Origin: Deltaproteobacteria bacterium
GTDB lineage: Bacteria > JAUYMQ01
Assembly (NCBI GenBank): GCA_030698575.1
Contig: JAUYMQ010000183.1
Location: 1-8,918, forward strand
DNA: 8,918 nt
Direction: 5' to 3'
Under the pieces are notes generated by a model, which saw nothing but the letters and a program-made list of their open reading frames with translations, did not search any database and was not told the origin of the DNA. Position 1 is the stretch's first letter. Each line of letters starts with the position of its first letter. Positions 3,155 to 8,918 of the stretch are shown here, one piece after another. Made by a program: the position numbers and the translations under genes.

Positions 3155-5785
3155 TCAGGCCGCTCCCGCCTCCCCACCGATAATTCTCGGCGTCACGAAG
3201 ATGATGAGTTCCTTCTTCTTGTCGGAAACGCTGTAGTTCCGGAAAAGCCACTGGAAGCCCGGAACACGGTTCAGGTACGGAATGGACATGTTGTTCGCGG
3301 CCTTGTCGACGACGTAGATTCCGCCGATCACGACCGTCTGCCCATCCTTCACCAGAGCCTCCGTGGTCGCCTCGTTCTTGGCGATCGCGGGGTCGCCCGT
3401 CGCCGTTGGTACCGAGAGGTCCGGCGCGTTCCGGGCCACCTTGATCTTCATGATGATCGACCTGTCGCTCGTCACGTGTGGCGTCACCGTGAGCGAGAGA
3501 TCCGCATCGATGAACTCGAGGTTCGTGTCCCCCTCCTCGGTGGTCTGGAAGGGAATGGAGATGCCCTGCTGGATCTTGGCTTCCTTGTTATCGAGCGTGA
3601 TGATCCGCGGGCTCGAGATCACGCGGCCGTTACCGGAGCTCTCGAGCGCCTGGATCGTGACGTCCACGTCGAGCTGATCCTTCAGCGCCGTGAAAGAGCC
3701 GGAAGCGACACCGGTCGGCATCCCTTTAATGGGAAGGGCGCCGGAAAAGAGGCTGGATCCCGACGGGCTCGTGCCCGAGTTCACCACCCGGTTCCCGAAA
3801 TTGACGTTGTCGCTAGCGGCGTTTTTCCCGTTGCCGATGTCAGCGTTCAGGAAGTCGGCCGTGTACATGATTCCCAGTTCTTTCGCGAAGTCGAGGTTGG
3901 CTTCGACGATCTTCGCCTCGATCAGGACCTGGGGGGTTTGCGTGTCGAGCCGTCGAACGAGCTTGACCGCCTGCTCGATCACCGTCGGGATGTCCTTGAT
4001 GATGAGCGTGTTCGTCCGGATGTCGACGTTGGACGAACCACGGTCGGACAGAAGGCTCTCCACCTGCTCCTGCGCATCGGTCACTTTTGCGTAGTTGATC
4101 GGAACGAGCTTGACCATGAGGTCTTCCAGCTTCTCCACCGACCGACGATCGGCAAGATACTGGGCCTCCTCGGCCTTGAGGCGCTCGGCCGGCGCAACCC
4201 GGAGGATGTTCCCGGTCCGGATGTAGCCGAGCTGCCGGCTCGCAAGCACCACGTCCAGCGCCTGATCCCAGGGGACATTTACCAGGCGCACGGTAACTGC
4301 GCCGGCGACGTCCTCGGCCGCAACCACGTTAAGTCCGCTGACCTCCGCGATGAGGCGGAGAATGTTCTGGATGTCGGCATCCTTGAAGTCGAGTGAAACC
4401 AGATTGCCGTGGTAGACTTTCCCGGGCCGGAAGCCGAGGCTGATCTCGGGCCTTTCGGTCAGGACCCCTTCGTTGGGATTCCGGATCTCGTCCGGATCGA
4501 TCTCGGACGCCGCCTCCGTGTCCAGAGCAGCCATCACCGGCGTCGCCAGCGGCACGATCGGCTCCGAGGCCTCGAGATCGGGCAGCGCCGGGTTCTCCGT
4601 CTCCGGCGTGATTGCAGCGGCGGTGCGCTCCTCCTTAAAGGGCTCCGGCTTAACGGGCCGGGGAGCAGCTTCAGGGGCGATCTCCGTCACCTGGGCCGCC
4701 ACCGGGGTCGCTGCAGGAATCGCGCTCGCGATGTTCTTCGAACGATCTCCGAAGGCGATCAGAAGCGTGCTCCCCGCGGGCTCAATGGCGTAGGGCGCGC
4801 TTTCGTCGTCGAGATCCAGGACAATTCTCACCTTGCCGGGATGGGGCCCGATCCGGACGCTGCCGATTTCGGGGCCGCCAACCGGTATCAATCGCTTCCC
4901 GCTCGCCTCTTGAACGCCGAAGACATCGACCACCAGCCGGCTCGGATTGTCGAGCGTGAAGAAATCGAAACTCCTCGCGCGGCCGTTCAGCTCGACGGCC
5001 ACCTGCGTGCCGGTAGCTGCCTTGTCGACGCTGACCGCAGTCAATTCAGTCGCTTCCGGAAGAGCGAGATCACGGGTAGCGGGCGCTTCTGAAGGCTCCG
5101 CCTTCGTGACCTGCACGGCCTGCGGCGATTCTTTCCCGGAAGCCTCAGCCTCGGTTTCCGTCTTCGCGGGCGTAGCGCCGATCTTCGCGAGGGCATCCGT
5201 CTCAGCGCCGCCGATGTCTGTGGTATCGAGGCCGGACTTCGCCGCTGAGGGCTCCGGAGCCAGATCGTCCTCGGCCGCTTCCGCCGAAACCTCCATCACG
5301 AGGCCGTCAGGCTTCTGGTGGACCTCGTAGTGCACTTCCCGCTTCAGCGTGACCAGGATGCGGCTCGACTGCTTCTTGGAAGCCGTCTGGGTGACGAACA
5401 CCTTGTCCACCAGCTCGCCGTCGACCTCGAAGGGGGCGATGGGCTTGGCGATCTGCGTTCCCGCCAGGTTGAGGATCACCGCCGGCGGATCCTGCTGCCG
5501 GACGGCGAAGAAGAACACCGGCCGGTTCGCATAGGCGCGAATGCTCGTCCTGTCGCCCTCCTTCGTAATCTCGACGCGATCAATGACGGTGGCGTCGTTG
5601 TCGGAACCGAGGGCGGAGGCCTTCGGGCCGGCGCCTGTTTCGTCCTTCGCGTACGCACTGGCGCCCAAAAGGAGCGTCAGGCACGCCGCAATGATGAAGA
5701 GCGCGGCTACGCGGGACAGAAGGCCCCGAGCAACGCCACCTTCGACGAAGGAGCCCATATTTTCAAACCTCCCCCTGTTGCTCAT
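3155..5785 (-). CDS. pilQ: type IV pilus secretin PilQ
   Basis: PilQ forms the multimeric outer-membrane channel through which the pilus fibre passes. The 876-residue protein has a signal peptide (hydrophobic segment about 23-46, likely cleavage after AYA46), two AMIN domains (about 66-168 and 248-346; AMIN domains bind peptidoglycan), and a Pro/Ala/Glu-rich linker (about 347-450). Next come an STN/N0 domain (about 458-532), a secretin N1 domain (about 553-613, with VPINYAKV and TNTLIIKDIP), and the C-terminal secretin domain (about 617-870). The last contains VLIEAKIVEAN, GNGRVISSPRI, KDGQTVVIGGIY and the signature RVPGFQWLFR near 840-849. It ends in ELIIFVTPRII, typical of PilQ. The ATG at 5785 shares one base with the pilP TGA stop and has GGGGAGG at 7 nt. 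An alternative ATG at 5758 (residue 10) also has a strong Shine-Dalgarno. The gene appears intact. Confidence 0.97.
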   Translation of the reverse strand: MSNRGRFENMGSFVEGGVARGLLSRVAALFIIAACLTLLLGASAYAKDETGAGPKASALGSDNDATVIDRVEITKEGDRTSIRAYANRPVFFFAVRQQDPPAVILNLAGTQIAKPIAPFEVDGELVDKVFVTQTASKKQSSRILVTLKREVHYEVHQKPDGLVMEVSAEAAEDDLAPEPSAAKSGLDTTDIGGAETDALAKIGATPAKTETEAEASGKESPQAVQVTKAEPSEAPATRDLALPEATELTAVSVDKAATGTQVAVELNGRARSFDFFTLDNPSRLVVDVFGVQEASGKRLIPVGGPEIGSVRIGPHPGKVRIVLDLDDESAPYAIEPAGSTLLIAFGDRSKNIASAIPAATPVAAQVTEIAPEAAPRPVKPEPFKEERTAAAITPETENPALPDLEASEPIVPLATPVMAALDTEAASEIDPDEIRNPNEGVLTERPEISLGFRPGKVYHGNLVSLDFKDADIQNILRLIAEVSGLNVVAAEDVAGAVTVRLVNVPWDQALDVVLASRQLGYIRTGNILRVAPAERLKAEEAQYLADRRSVEKLEDLMVKLVPINYAKVTDAQEQVESLLSDRGSSNVDIRTNTLIIKDIPTVIEQAVKLVRRLDTQTPQVLIEAKIVEANLDFAKELGIMYTADFLNADIGNGKNAASDNVNFGNRVVNSGTSPSGSSLFSGALPIKGMPTGVASGSFTALKDQLDVDVTIQALESSGNGRVISSPRIITLDNKEAKIQQGISIPFQTTEEGDTNLEFIDADLSLTVTPHVTSDRSIIMKIKVARNAPDLSVPTATGDPAIAKNEATTEALVKDGQTVVIGGIYVVDKAANNMSIPYLNRVPGFQWLFRNYSVSDKKKELIIFVTPRIIGGEAGAA
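5768..5775 (-). promoter_or_regulatory. second candidate ribosome binding site at the pilQ start
   Basis: GGGGGAGG lies 9 nt before an in-frame ATG at 5758, inside the first codons of pilQ. The upstream site GGGGAGG (5793-5799) lies 7 nt before the ATG at 5785. Both are good sites, so the N-terminus of PilQ is uncertain by nine residues. The shorter form would leave a more compact signal peptide. Confidence 0.5.
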
Positions 5786-6339
5786 CAGCTTTCCTCCCCA
5801 TACAGATCGGGCTGAACGATCTTCAGGGTCACGCTCTTCTGGCTCTCGTGTCCCAGATAATCGATATAGGTTTCCTTGACCCGGACCTCACGGTCCCCGA
5901 TGTTAGTCACGATGCCCCGGTTCTTGCCAATGTCCGATCCGATCTGGATGACATGGCTGCGACCGGTCGGGTCCGCGACCATGGCCTTGGGCAATTCCAC
6001 GTTCCAGACGACGGCCGTCAGTTGAAGCTGTGCGAGGTCATACCGGCGGAGCGGGCTTTCCGCGACCTTCGAGGATTCACGAAGGAGAATGAAGGGGCGG
6101 AAAGGGTCCGGCTTGTTCGCCGATTCGTACCTGTACTCGGCCTGCAGAGCCGCTTCCTGAACCGTTTTGGTTGCTGGAGCGGTCTTCGCCACCTCGTCGG
6201 TGGCAGCCGGCGTATCTGACGCCGGACCTTCAGAGCCACCACAACCAGGAAGGATGGCGATCATTGCGATGGCGAACGCTGCGGCACAGCCCCAGCTCCA
6301 TCGGCTCCGGCGGTTCTCCATTTTATTGTTTCGTGCCAT
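5785..6339 (-). CDS. pilP: type IV pilus assembly lipoprotein PilP
   Basis: PilP is an inner-membrane-anchored lipoprotein that binds the PilN-PilO dimer and contacts the N-terminal domains of PilQ, aligning the inner- and outer-membrane parts of the pilus machine. The 184-residue product starts with a basic segment, then a hydrophobic stretch (about 17-31) that ends in a lipobox-like LPGC with the lipidated Cys at 33. A flexible linker (34-66) follows. The conserved PilP core shows YESANKPDPFRPF (71-83), PLRRYDLAQLQLTAVVW (96-112) and GRSHVIQIGSDIGKN (126-140), which form the beta-sandwich domain. The ATG at 6339 has GGGGAG at 4 nt. A TTG at 6366 would extend it by nine residues but has less support. 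The gap to pilO is 39 bp, and the stop overlaps the pilQ ATG. Confidence 0.95.
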   Translation of the reverse strand: MARNNKMENRRSRWSWGCAAAFAIAMIAILPGCGGSEGPASDTPAATDEVAKTAPATKTVQEAALQAEYRYESANKPDPFRPFILLRESSKVAESPLRRYDLAQLQLTAVVWNVELPKAMVADPTGRSHVIQIGSDIGKNRGIVTNIGDREVRVKETYIDYLGHESQKSVTLKIVQPDLYGEES

Positions 6340-6378: not shown

Positions 6379-6996
6379 TCAGGCGCCGGCGGCAGCGGCT
6401 GCCGCTGCCTCGTCCGCCGCGAGTTCCGCGTCATTGACGAAGCGGAAAGTCGTGGCCACCCCGCTAATCGTCAGCATGACCGCATTCGGGCTTACCTCGA
6501 CGTTGTCCACGCTGAAGCTCTGCACGTTCACGATCCGGTTGAGTCTTGAGAGTTCGTCAAAGAATTTCGCCAGATCATGGTAGCCGCCGTTCAGCACGAT
6601 GCTGATCGGCACCTCGGCGTAGAATCCCTTCTTCACTTCCGGCTGCGGAATGAAGGATTTGAACTCGAGGCCCGCGTTCTTTCCCAGAGTCGTGATGTCT
6701 GTCAGCAGCACCGGCAGTTCCTTGTCGTTCGGAAGCTGCATGAGCGCTTCGGTGAGCTCCGCGTTGAGGCGCTTCAACTCATTCTCGAATCGCGGAAGAT
6801 CGGCGGCCAGCGTGCGATTCTCGGCCAGCTGAACCTGGAGTTGCCCCAGCTTGTCGTTCGATGCATTCAGGTCCTGCCGCTTGGCATCGAACATTGCGAA
6901 CCAGTAAGCGACCAGGAGCAGTACCGAGGCGCAGGCCAGCAGCGCGAGCTTCTGCTGCTTCGGCAGCTTCTTGATCTTGTCCATGTCAAGCGCCAC
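6379..6996 (-). CDS. pilO: type IV pilus inner-membrane protein PilO
   Basis: PilO is a bitopic inner-membrane protein that pairs with PilN through matching coiled coils and ferredoxin-like periplasmic domains. The 205-residue product has a short cytoplasmic N-terminus with KKLPKQQK, one membrane segment (about 16-36), a coiled coil (about 38-90), and a compact periplasmic domain (about 94-190) with GLEFKSFIPQPE and YHDLAKFFDELSRL typical of PilO. The C-terminus is an alanine run (198-203). The start is taken as GTG at 6996 because GGAGGAGG (7003-7010) lies 6 nt before it. An ATG at 6984 is the fallback; it would sit 1 nt after the pilN stop but 18 nt from the Shine-Dalgarno. With the GTG, the gene overlaps pilN by 11 bp. 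Confidence 0.95.
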   Translation of the reverse strand: MALDMDKIKKLPKQQKLALLACASVLLLVAYWFAMFDAKRQDLNASNDKLGQLQVQLAENRTLAADLPRFENELKRLNAELTEALMQLPNDKELPVLLTDITTLGKNAGLEFKSFIPQPEVKKGFYAEVPISIVLNGGYHDLAKFFDELSRLNRIVNVQSFSVDNVEVSPNAVMLTISGVATTFRFVNDAELAADEAAAAAAAGA

Positions 6997-7558
6997 TTTC
7001 AGCCTCCTCCGGAACTCCCGGGATCGCGACCGAACAGCTGATCGTGAACCGGTTGAGTTTCACCGGCCCGCCCTCTTCCAGTTCGCTCCGCTCGAGCTCG
7101 ACGTTCTCGAAATAGGGTGATTCCTCGAGTTTTATCATGTATGCGGCGATCGTTTCGTTATCGATAGACAGGCCCTCGACCGAGAGAGAGCCGTTACTCT
7201 CGTTGAGGCGCGTGAGCCAGACCTTCTCGGGAAGGCGGCTCGCTATCTCGTCAAGAACGCGAACCGGCCCGCCGCGGTTGGCTTCAAGCGTCTTGATGAT
7301 GGTGAGCTTCTCCTCGATGTCCGCCTTGCTCTTCTTGTACTCCGCAACGTTCCCGATGACCTTGCTCAGCTCATCGATCTCGGCCTGGGTTGTCTGGACC
7401 TGGCTGTTGACGGAGGAGATGCGCCCCACGATTACCACGTGGATCGCGATGATGAGGAGGAGCGTTCCGCCCAGGACCCCGCCAATGACGAGGGCCTGCT
7501 TGAGCTCCGTCTCCCGCTTCTTGGCTTCCCTTACGGGAAGTAAATTGATGCTGATCAT
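6986..7558 (-). CDS. pilN: type IV pilus inner-membrane protein PilN
   Basis: PilN is a bitopic inner-membrane protein whose short cytoplasmic tail docks into PilM and whose periplasmic part dimerises with PilO. The 190-residue product opens with ISINLLPVRE (2-11), the conserved INLLP motif that binds PilM. A membrane segment (about 22-45), a coiled coil (about 48-92) and a periplasmic ferredoxin-like domain (about 97-182) follow, including VLDEIASRLPEKVWLTRL and YMIKLEESPYFENVEL. The ATG at 7558 follows the pilM stop by a single base and places INLLP at the very N-terminus, as in the family. The Shine-Dalgarno is modest (GGGGG in GGGGGCGTGAC). The frame is open to 7639, but that extension only shadows pilM. 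Confidence 0.96.
   Translation of the reverse strand: MISINLLPVREAKKRETELKQALVIGGVLGGTLLLIIAIHVVIVGRISSVNSQVQTTQAEIDELSKVIGNVAEYKKSKADIEEKLTIIKTLEANRGGPVRVLDEIASRLPEKVWLTRLNESNGSLSVEGLSIDNETIAAYMIKLEESPYFENVELERSELEEGGPVKLNRFTISCSVAIPGVPEEAESGA
7003..7010 (-). promoter_or_regulatory. pilO ribosome binding site deciding a GTG start
   Basis: GGAGGAGG on the minus strand is spaced 6 nt from GTG (6996) and 18 nt from the first ATG (6984). The spacing favours the GTG and therefore an overlap with the end of pilN. Confidence 0.7.
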
Positions 7559-7559
7559 G

Positions 7560-8633
7560 TCACGCCCCCGCCGTGCGGAGCGCCAGCCCGACGCCCACGC
7601 ACATGGACGGCCCGACCTCGCGCAGATAGTCCTCGTCAATCATCTTCCCGTCACACTCGATCTGGCGGAACGGATCCGCGATCTCGACCGGAACGCGTGT
7701 CTTTTCCTCGATAATCTCCGGAAGGCCAGACATCTGGGCGCAACCGCCGCTGAGGATGATCCTGGACACGCGATCCTCCGGCGCCGTGGCGCCGAAGAAC
7801 TCCATGGAGCGCTGGATCTCGGCGGCCAGCGTTTCGGAAACGCCGCGCATCGCCCGATCAACCTCCTCGGGCAGGATTTCCTTGCCGGCCAGCGAAGGCG
7901 TACCGCCCAGCTTGATTGCCTCGGCTTCCTGGAAGCTCACGTGCAGGGTTTTCTGGATCTCTTCCGTATACTGGTTCCCGCCGGCCGAGATGTCCCGGGT
8001 GAAGACGGGGAGCCCGTTTTTCACGATGTTGATGTTCACGATCGAGGCCCCGATGTTCACCAGGGCCGCAGTCTCGTCCTGATTCGCGGCGTAGTTCTTC
8101 TCGAACATCGTCTCGACGGCGAAGGCTTCAACGTCGATCACCGTGGGCCGCAAGCCCGCTTCCGTGATCACGTTGACGTAGTCGTTGATCAGCTCTTTCT
8201 TCGCCGCGACGAGCAGAACATCCATCTTTCCGTCCGACTCGAACCCGTTCGAAAGAATCTGGAAATCGAGATTCACGTCGTTGATGTCGAAGGGGATGTA
8301 CTGCTCCGCCTCCCACTGGATCTGCTCCTCGAGCTCTTCCTTGGTCATCGCGGGAAGACTGATCTTCTTGATAATCACCGAATGGCCGGAAACGGCCACG
8401 ACGGCATCCTTGGTCTTGATGTTGTTGTTCACGAGAACGTTCTGGATTGCCTCGACGATCGCGCCTGAATTTAGAAGCGCGCCGTCGACGATCGCCTCGG
8501 GAGGAAGGCTCGCTGTGCCGAGATTGACGAGCTGATATCCCCGCCTTCCCGGCCGGAGCTCCACCACCTTCACGGCGTGTGATCCGATGTCGAGCCCGAT
8601 GACCGGCCGTGCCTTGTTCAGCTTGAAAAACAT
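7560..8633 (-). CDS. pilM: type IV pilus actin-like ATPase PilM
   Basis: PilM is a cytoplasmic actin/FtsA-like nucleotide-binding protein that holds the N-terminal peptide of PilN and connects the pilus alignment complex to the cytoplasmic motor side. The 357-residue length is normal. Visible motifs are phosphate-1 GLDIGSHAVK (13-22), the PilM-typical segment QWEAEQYIPFDINDV (106-120), phosphate-2 LVNIGASIVNINI (191-203), FTRDISAGGNQYTEEI (211-226) and the adenosine motif ILSGGCAQMSGL (293-304). The ATG at 8633 has AGGGAG (8639-8644) at 5 nt. It is the first gene of the block, and the only recognisable promoter, of sigma-54 type, lies about 200 bp upstream. The gene looks intact and ends in TGA one base before pilN. 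Confidence 0.97.
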   Translation of the reverse strand: MFFKLNKARPVIGLDIGSHAVKVVELRPGRRGYQLVNLGTASLPPEAIVDGALLNSGAIVEAIQNVLVNNNIKTKDAVVAVSGHSVIIKKISLPAMTKEELEEQIQWEAEQYIPFDINDVNLDFQILSNGFESDGKMDVLLVAAKKELINDYVNVITEAGLRPTVIDVEAFAVETMFEKNYAANQDETAALVNIGASIVNINIVKNGLPVFTRDISAGGNQYTEEIQKTLHVSFQEAEAIKLGGTPSLAGKEILPEEVDRAMRGVSETLAAEIQRSMEFFGATAPEDRVSRIILSGGCAQMSGLPEIIEEKTRVPVEIADPFRQIECDGKMIDEDYLREVGPSMCVGVGLALRTAGA

Positions 8634-8844
8634 GCGCTCTCCCTGGAGCGGCCCGATGGCACGCGACGCTTCATCGGGCCCGCTTCTGACGATCGACCTG
8701 ACAAAAAGGAGTGTCCAAGGATCCCCCGTTCAATCACCTTTTTCGGGAATAGCCGCGGGAACTTGAGCCCAATCCGTGCGCCCTTTGTGCGGGCCCTCCG
8801 CAGGGCGGTCTTGCTGCCCATCCCGTCCTCGAGGGCAACAAGAG
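8634..8844 (-). other. untranslated leader of the pil operon
   Basis: About 200 nt separate the sigma-54 promoter from pilM. The stretch holds a small hairpin (gccct/agggc, 8793-8806), a strong hairpin next to the pilM ribosome binding site (8647-8684), and an open frame of 67 codons (8821-8618) whose highly basic product resembles nothing I recognise. No known riboswitch pattern is apparent to me. Confidence 0.5.
8647..8684 (-). promoter_or_regulatory. hairpin abutting the pilM ribosome binding site
   Basis: The arms ggcccgatg (8650-8658) and catcgggcc (8672-8680) are exact reverse complements. Three more pairs past a single bulged C extend the stem to 12 bp around a 13-nt loop. The stem ends two nucleotides before AGGGAGAG, the pilM Shine-Dalgarno. 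It has no T-run, so it is not a standard terminator. It could modulate translation or protect the mRNA end. Confidence 0.55.
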
Positions 8845-8860
8845 AGCAACAACCGTGCCA
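8845..8860 (-). promoter_or_regulatory. sigma-54 (RpoN) -24/-12 promoter for the pil operon
   Basis: The minus strand reads TGGCACGGTTGTTGCT, which matches every position of the sigma-54 consensus TGGCACR-N4-TTGCW, with the invariant GG and GC at the correct spacing. Transcription would start near 8834 and give a leader of about 200 nt before pilM. RpoN promoters require an AAA+ enhancer-binding activator (PilR does this for pilA in several bacteria). Activator sites usually lie 80-200 bp upstream and would fall outside this window. Confidence 0.8.
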
Positions 8861-8918
8861 GATGCCGCATTCCCACCCCGGGACCGGGAGGCAAAATGGC
8901 CCATGATTTCAGGGGTTC
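8861..8918. other. sequence upstream of the sigma-54 promoter
   Basis: These 58 bp reach the window edge. They contain frames without stops on the minus strand, but the predicted peptides look random, so I see no gene end here. No clear repeated activator site is visible in so short a stretch. Confidence 0.35.

Follow-up and report, generated by a model that had tools for sequence, protein, structure and literature searches.

On its minus strand, the window (the whole 8,918-nucleotide stretch of DNA analysed here) carries five genes for the alignment complex and the secretin of a type IV pilus. The first-pass annotation had named the five genes pilM, pilN, pilO, pilP and pilQ, and Pfam and NCBIfam matches bear out each name. 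Genes for shikimate kinase and dehydroquinate synthase come after pilQ on the same strand. In the direction of transcription, the features are as follows.

8861 to 8918, minus strand: DNA upstream of the promoter core to the contig end, 58 bp (contig boundary)
8845 to 8860, minus strand: match to the RpoN (sigma-54) -24/-12 promoter core, TGGCACGGTTGTTGCT (exact pattern match)
8634 to 8844, minus strand: pilM leader, about 200 nt (Rfam and fold tests)
7560 to 8633, minus strand: pilM, 357 aa, first gene of the operon (TIGR01175, 1.5e-88)
6986 to 7558, minus strand: pilN (PF05137)
6379 to 6996, minus strand: pilO (PF04350)
5785 to 6339, minus strand: pilP (PF04351), with a start at 6339 or possibly further upstream
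3155 to 5785, minus strand: pilQ, secretin (TIGR02515)

Of the PilM matches in a search of the genome, that in the window alone is similar enough to be taken for the alignment protein. Two others share 25% identity with it, one of which (contig C571) sits in an apparent type II secretion cluster.

The sigma-54 core and the pilM leader

The element TGGCACGGTTGTTGCT (8860 to 8845, minus strand) is the sole match to TGGCACN5TTGCW in the window. It lies on the coding strand of pilM to pilQ, as had been stated, and the distance of about 200 bp first given was measured as 211 nt from the end of the core to the pilM ATG at 8633. The 16-base core pattern, TGGCACG-N4-TTGCW, is satisfied at all specified bases, with the GG and GC dinucleotides present at their fixed spacing. 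The Barrios consensus reportedly has a longer form with weakly conserved flanks, mrNrY before the core and NNw after it. At these outer positions the site matches the Y and fails to match m, r, r and w. The claim of a consensus match at every specified base therefore stands for the core only, the weak outer positions being partly met.

From the usual spacing, transcription would be expected to start near 8834, about 12 nt past the -12 element. No sigma-70-like promoter was found between 8500 and 8918. An activator-binding site for the pilM promoter, if there is one, is mostly beyond the contig end. The genome was searched for a contig overlapping this end, by the approach that worked for pilS and pilR (below), and none was found.

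The promoter might serve a small open reading frame or a leader RNA at 8821 to 8618 and not pilM, which we regard as very improbable. What favours the small frame is its ATG with a GAGG-like ribosome site, 13 nt past the expected transcript start and opening 67 codons. However, the frame overruns the pilM start and has no Pfam match; with no protein family matched, it was rejected as a gene. A leader RNA fares no better, since a search of Rfam gave nothing for the leader at thresholds up to E 5 and its overall fold was no better than that of shuffles (z-score 0). These two results also ruled out a riboswitch or other known RNA in the leader.

Just ahead of the pilM ribosome site, at 8650 to 8680, lies an inverted repeat with 9-bp arms (GGCCCGATG/CATCGGGCC). 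It may form a hairpin or serve as a site for a regulator; the local hairpin has a z-score of -2.25, for a segment chosen post hoc. A dispersed repeat was considered and rejected, as the single other match falls in what resembles the coding frame of a phosphate-transport permease and is apparently fortuitous.

Perfect sites across the genome

A short pattern can match by chance, in which case the promoter would be inactive and pilMNOPQ would be transcribed from a promoter past the contig end. None of 200 dinucleotide shuffles of the window contained a perfect site. Across the 4.13-Mb genome, perfect TGGCACN5TTGCW sites number 21, versus 3 for a reversed-pattern control. At the control density, chance would place about 0.007 perfect sites in a stretch the size of the window, counting both strands, and about 1e-4 in the 211 nt ahead of pilM, which argues against a chance match. 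With one mismatch allowed, the genome holds 100 sites versus 115 for the control, which is no enrichment. Perfect sites alone were therefore taken as evidence, and CGGCACGCACATTGCA, a one-mismatch site ahead of minor pilins on contig C292, was set aside.

Control by sigma-54 needs an rpoN gene, and one is encoded on contig C238 of the same genome (PF04552, E 6.9e-63). The scan for further RpoN sites that the first-pass annotation had proposed, including pilA, was also productive. On contig C253 (locus L180, 2484 and 3232), two tandem type IV pilin genes each have a perfect site of their own, at upstream distances of 92 and 177 nt. The tandem pilin genes are directly downstream of a gene for a protein with receiver, sigma-54-activator and HTH_8 domains (PilR). 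Contig C253 starts with the end of a sensor kinase gene and overlaps the end of contig C264 (294 bp at 94.6%), on which an aroE-like gene and pilB, pilT and pilC lie together with the kinase gene (pilS). The resulting order, pilB-T-C-S-R-A, is the arrangement found in Geobacter. The other end of C253 overlaps the end of contig C347 (545 bp at 93.4%), and the two overlaps suggest assembly breaks at strain variants. The pilB-T-C region of this genome has no strong sigma-54 site, so the pilus machine genes are not all under such wiring. At another locus (L125, 1501 to 1516), a perfect sigma-54 site lies upstream of a Flp/Fap pilin gene, about 360 nt away.

That the pilins carry the same perfect site as pilM is further evidence against a chance match. 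Because these pilins lie beside pilS-pilR, PilR is also the natural candidate for the activator. A different NtrC-family protein could act on a real sigma-54 promoter at pilM, responding to another cue, such as one from nitrogen, envelope or exopolysaccharide control. The genome has 24 sigma-54 activator-domain matches from which such a protein could come. Perfect sites are also found upstream of an ammonium transporter gene, a classic RpoN target, before another NtrC-type regulator gene, and before a CBS-domain gene beside an activator gene. Against this stand the shared site at the pilins, which belong to the same organelle, and the single close PilM in the genome. We judge an activator other than PilR to be rather unlikely.

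Upstream regions of pilM in other genomes

In the set searched, the host genome is the sole member of its phylum. The relatives compared have PilM proteins 42-61% identical to that of the window. The first-pass annotation had looked to conservation of the GG and GC dinucleotides in orthologous upstream regions, and this was not borne out: no sigma-54 site was kept upstream of pilM at 42-61% PilM identity (nearest relatives 57-61%), a range in which none is close enough for a fair conservation test. Over 103 upstream regions, the best forward sigma-54 score had a median of 3.9, versus 4.9 for the reverse strand and 4.9 for shuffles; the window site scores 18.7 on this scale. As far as can be tested, within relatives at 42-61% PilM identity, the pilM site is thus lineage-specific. 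In four Polyangiaceae loci (L100, L102, L104 and L106), strong sigma-54-like sites lie on the strand opposite pilM (e.g. TGGCACGGGTTCTGCT) and perhaps serve a divergent gene.

The absence of the site in relatives is what a chance match would predict. The gene order of the relatives points the same way, because a small HTH gene immediately precedes pilM in 58 of 101 of them, so that the promoter there is usually further upstream. In the window, however, the DNA from pilM to the contig end contains no HTH gene, and one member of the family used as query gave no match in the host genome (92% complete), in a search run without a positive control. With the low chance expectation and the pilin sites also weighing against it, an inactive chance match at pilM seems improbable. 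The HTH protein itself (MSKAELARKAGxSxLTIDRVE...) is conserved across L032, L035, L072, L073, L094 and 53 other loci. Its gene lies about 1-150 nt before pilM, in hosts that include Geobacter and Myxococcota.

Two distant genomes have sites of their own. G024, which is unrelated, has a perfect match to TGGCACN5TTGCW on the strand that encodes pilM, with 70 nt between it and the pilM open frame, an arrangement like that in the window, although its leader is shorter and the two PilM proteins are 30% identical. Genome-wide, G024 has 17 perfect sites versus 4 for the control. In G025, also distant, a high-scoring site with one mismatch lies about 72 nt before pilM. Both genomes encode rpoN. A perfect site in an unrelated genome suggests that wiring of pilM to sigma-54 has arisen more than once, and independent origins are the most likely for the sites in the window and in G024. 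Sigma-54 control of pilM thus appears to be scattered in unrelated lineages and not an old shared trait.

A predicted PilR/RpoN pilus regulon

Taken together, we consider it likely that TGGCACGGTTGTTGCT is a working RpoN promoter of pilMNOPQ, and we lean, by a smaller measure, towards PilR as its activator. RNA polymerase with RpoN would bind TGGCACGGTTGTTGCT and remain as a closed complex, leaving the promoter silent. The closed complex would then be remodelled by an activator of the NtrC family acting from an upstream site past the contig end; PilR, phosphorylated by PilS, is the likeliest such activator. Transcription of pilMNOPQ would start near the predicted position and would run through pilQ as a single transcript. 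The same PilS-PilR/RpoN system would drive both tandem pilins on C253, so the supply of pilin and the alignment and secretin machine would rise together. Pilus parts and pilus machine are therefore probably switched on together in this genome, and the sequence is best explained by a PilR/RpoN pilus regulon to which pilMNOPQ belongs. As to its origin, a tentative and rather doubtful account is that the lineage lost the HTH gene that many of its deltaproteobacterial and myxococcal relatives have before pilM and that PilR/RpoN took over the assembly operon, placing machine and pilin under one switch, while one or more other lineages gained a sigma-54 input to pilM on their own.

We take COG4972 to be PilM. 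A 2025 survey of sigma-54 places COG4972 among the sigma-54-enriched groups in Myxococcia (PMC12316311). A pilM-type gene is thus predicted under sigma-54 there, as here, but that survey gives a statistical listing under secretion systems, for another lineage, with no promoter of a pilMNOPQ operon. The homologous fcpMNO genes of Campylobacter are not under RpoN (PMC11870540).

Control of pilA by RpoN and PilR is established in Pseudomonas (PMC6058289 and work cited there) and Xylella (PMC3224663), and also in Geobacter sulfurreducens, where pilA lies just downstream of pilR (PMC2725144). The predicted PilR/sigma-54 sites of Geobacter include further pilus genes, according to one of these papers (PMC6058289). 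The systems of Pseudomonas aeruginosa, G. sulfurreducens and Xylella fastidiosa share with the present one the sigma-54 core, the pilS-pilR-pilA neighbourhood and the organelle. The present system differs in having a perfect site before pilMNOPQ as well; in the passages cited here from those accounts, pilM goes unmentioned. In the open-access literature we found no RpoN promoter shown for pilMNOPQ.

The mechanism proposed is an ordinary one, and the finding is an extension of known regulation that leaves the general view of pilus control unaltered. Genes for pilus alignment and the secretin are not often named as RpoN targets, and the finding gives them a predicted sigma-54 input in a lineage on which few experiments have been done. 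Should the prediction be true, one two-component switch would set both the pilus subunit and the pilus machine in this organism.
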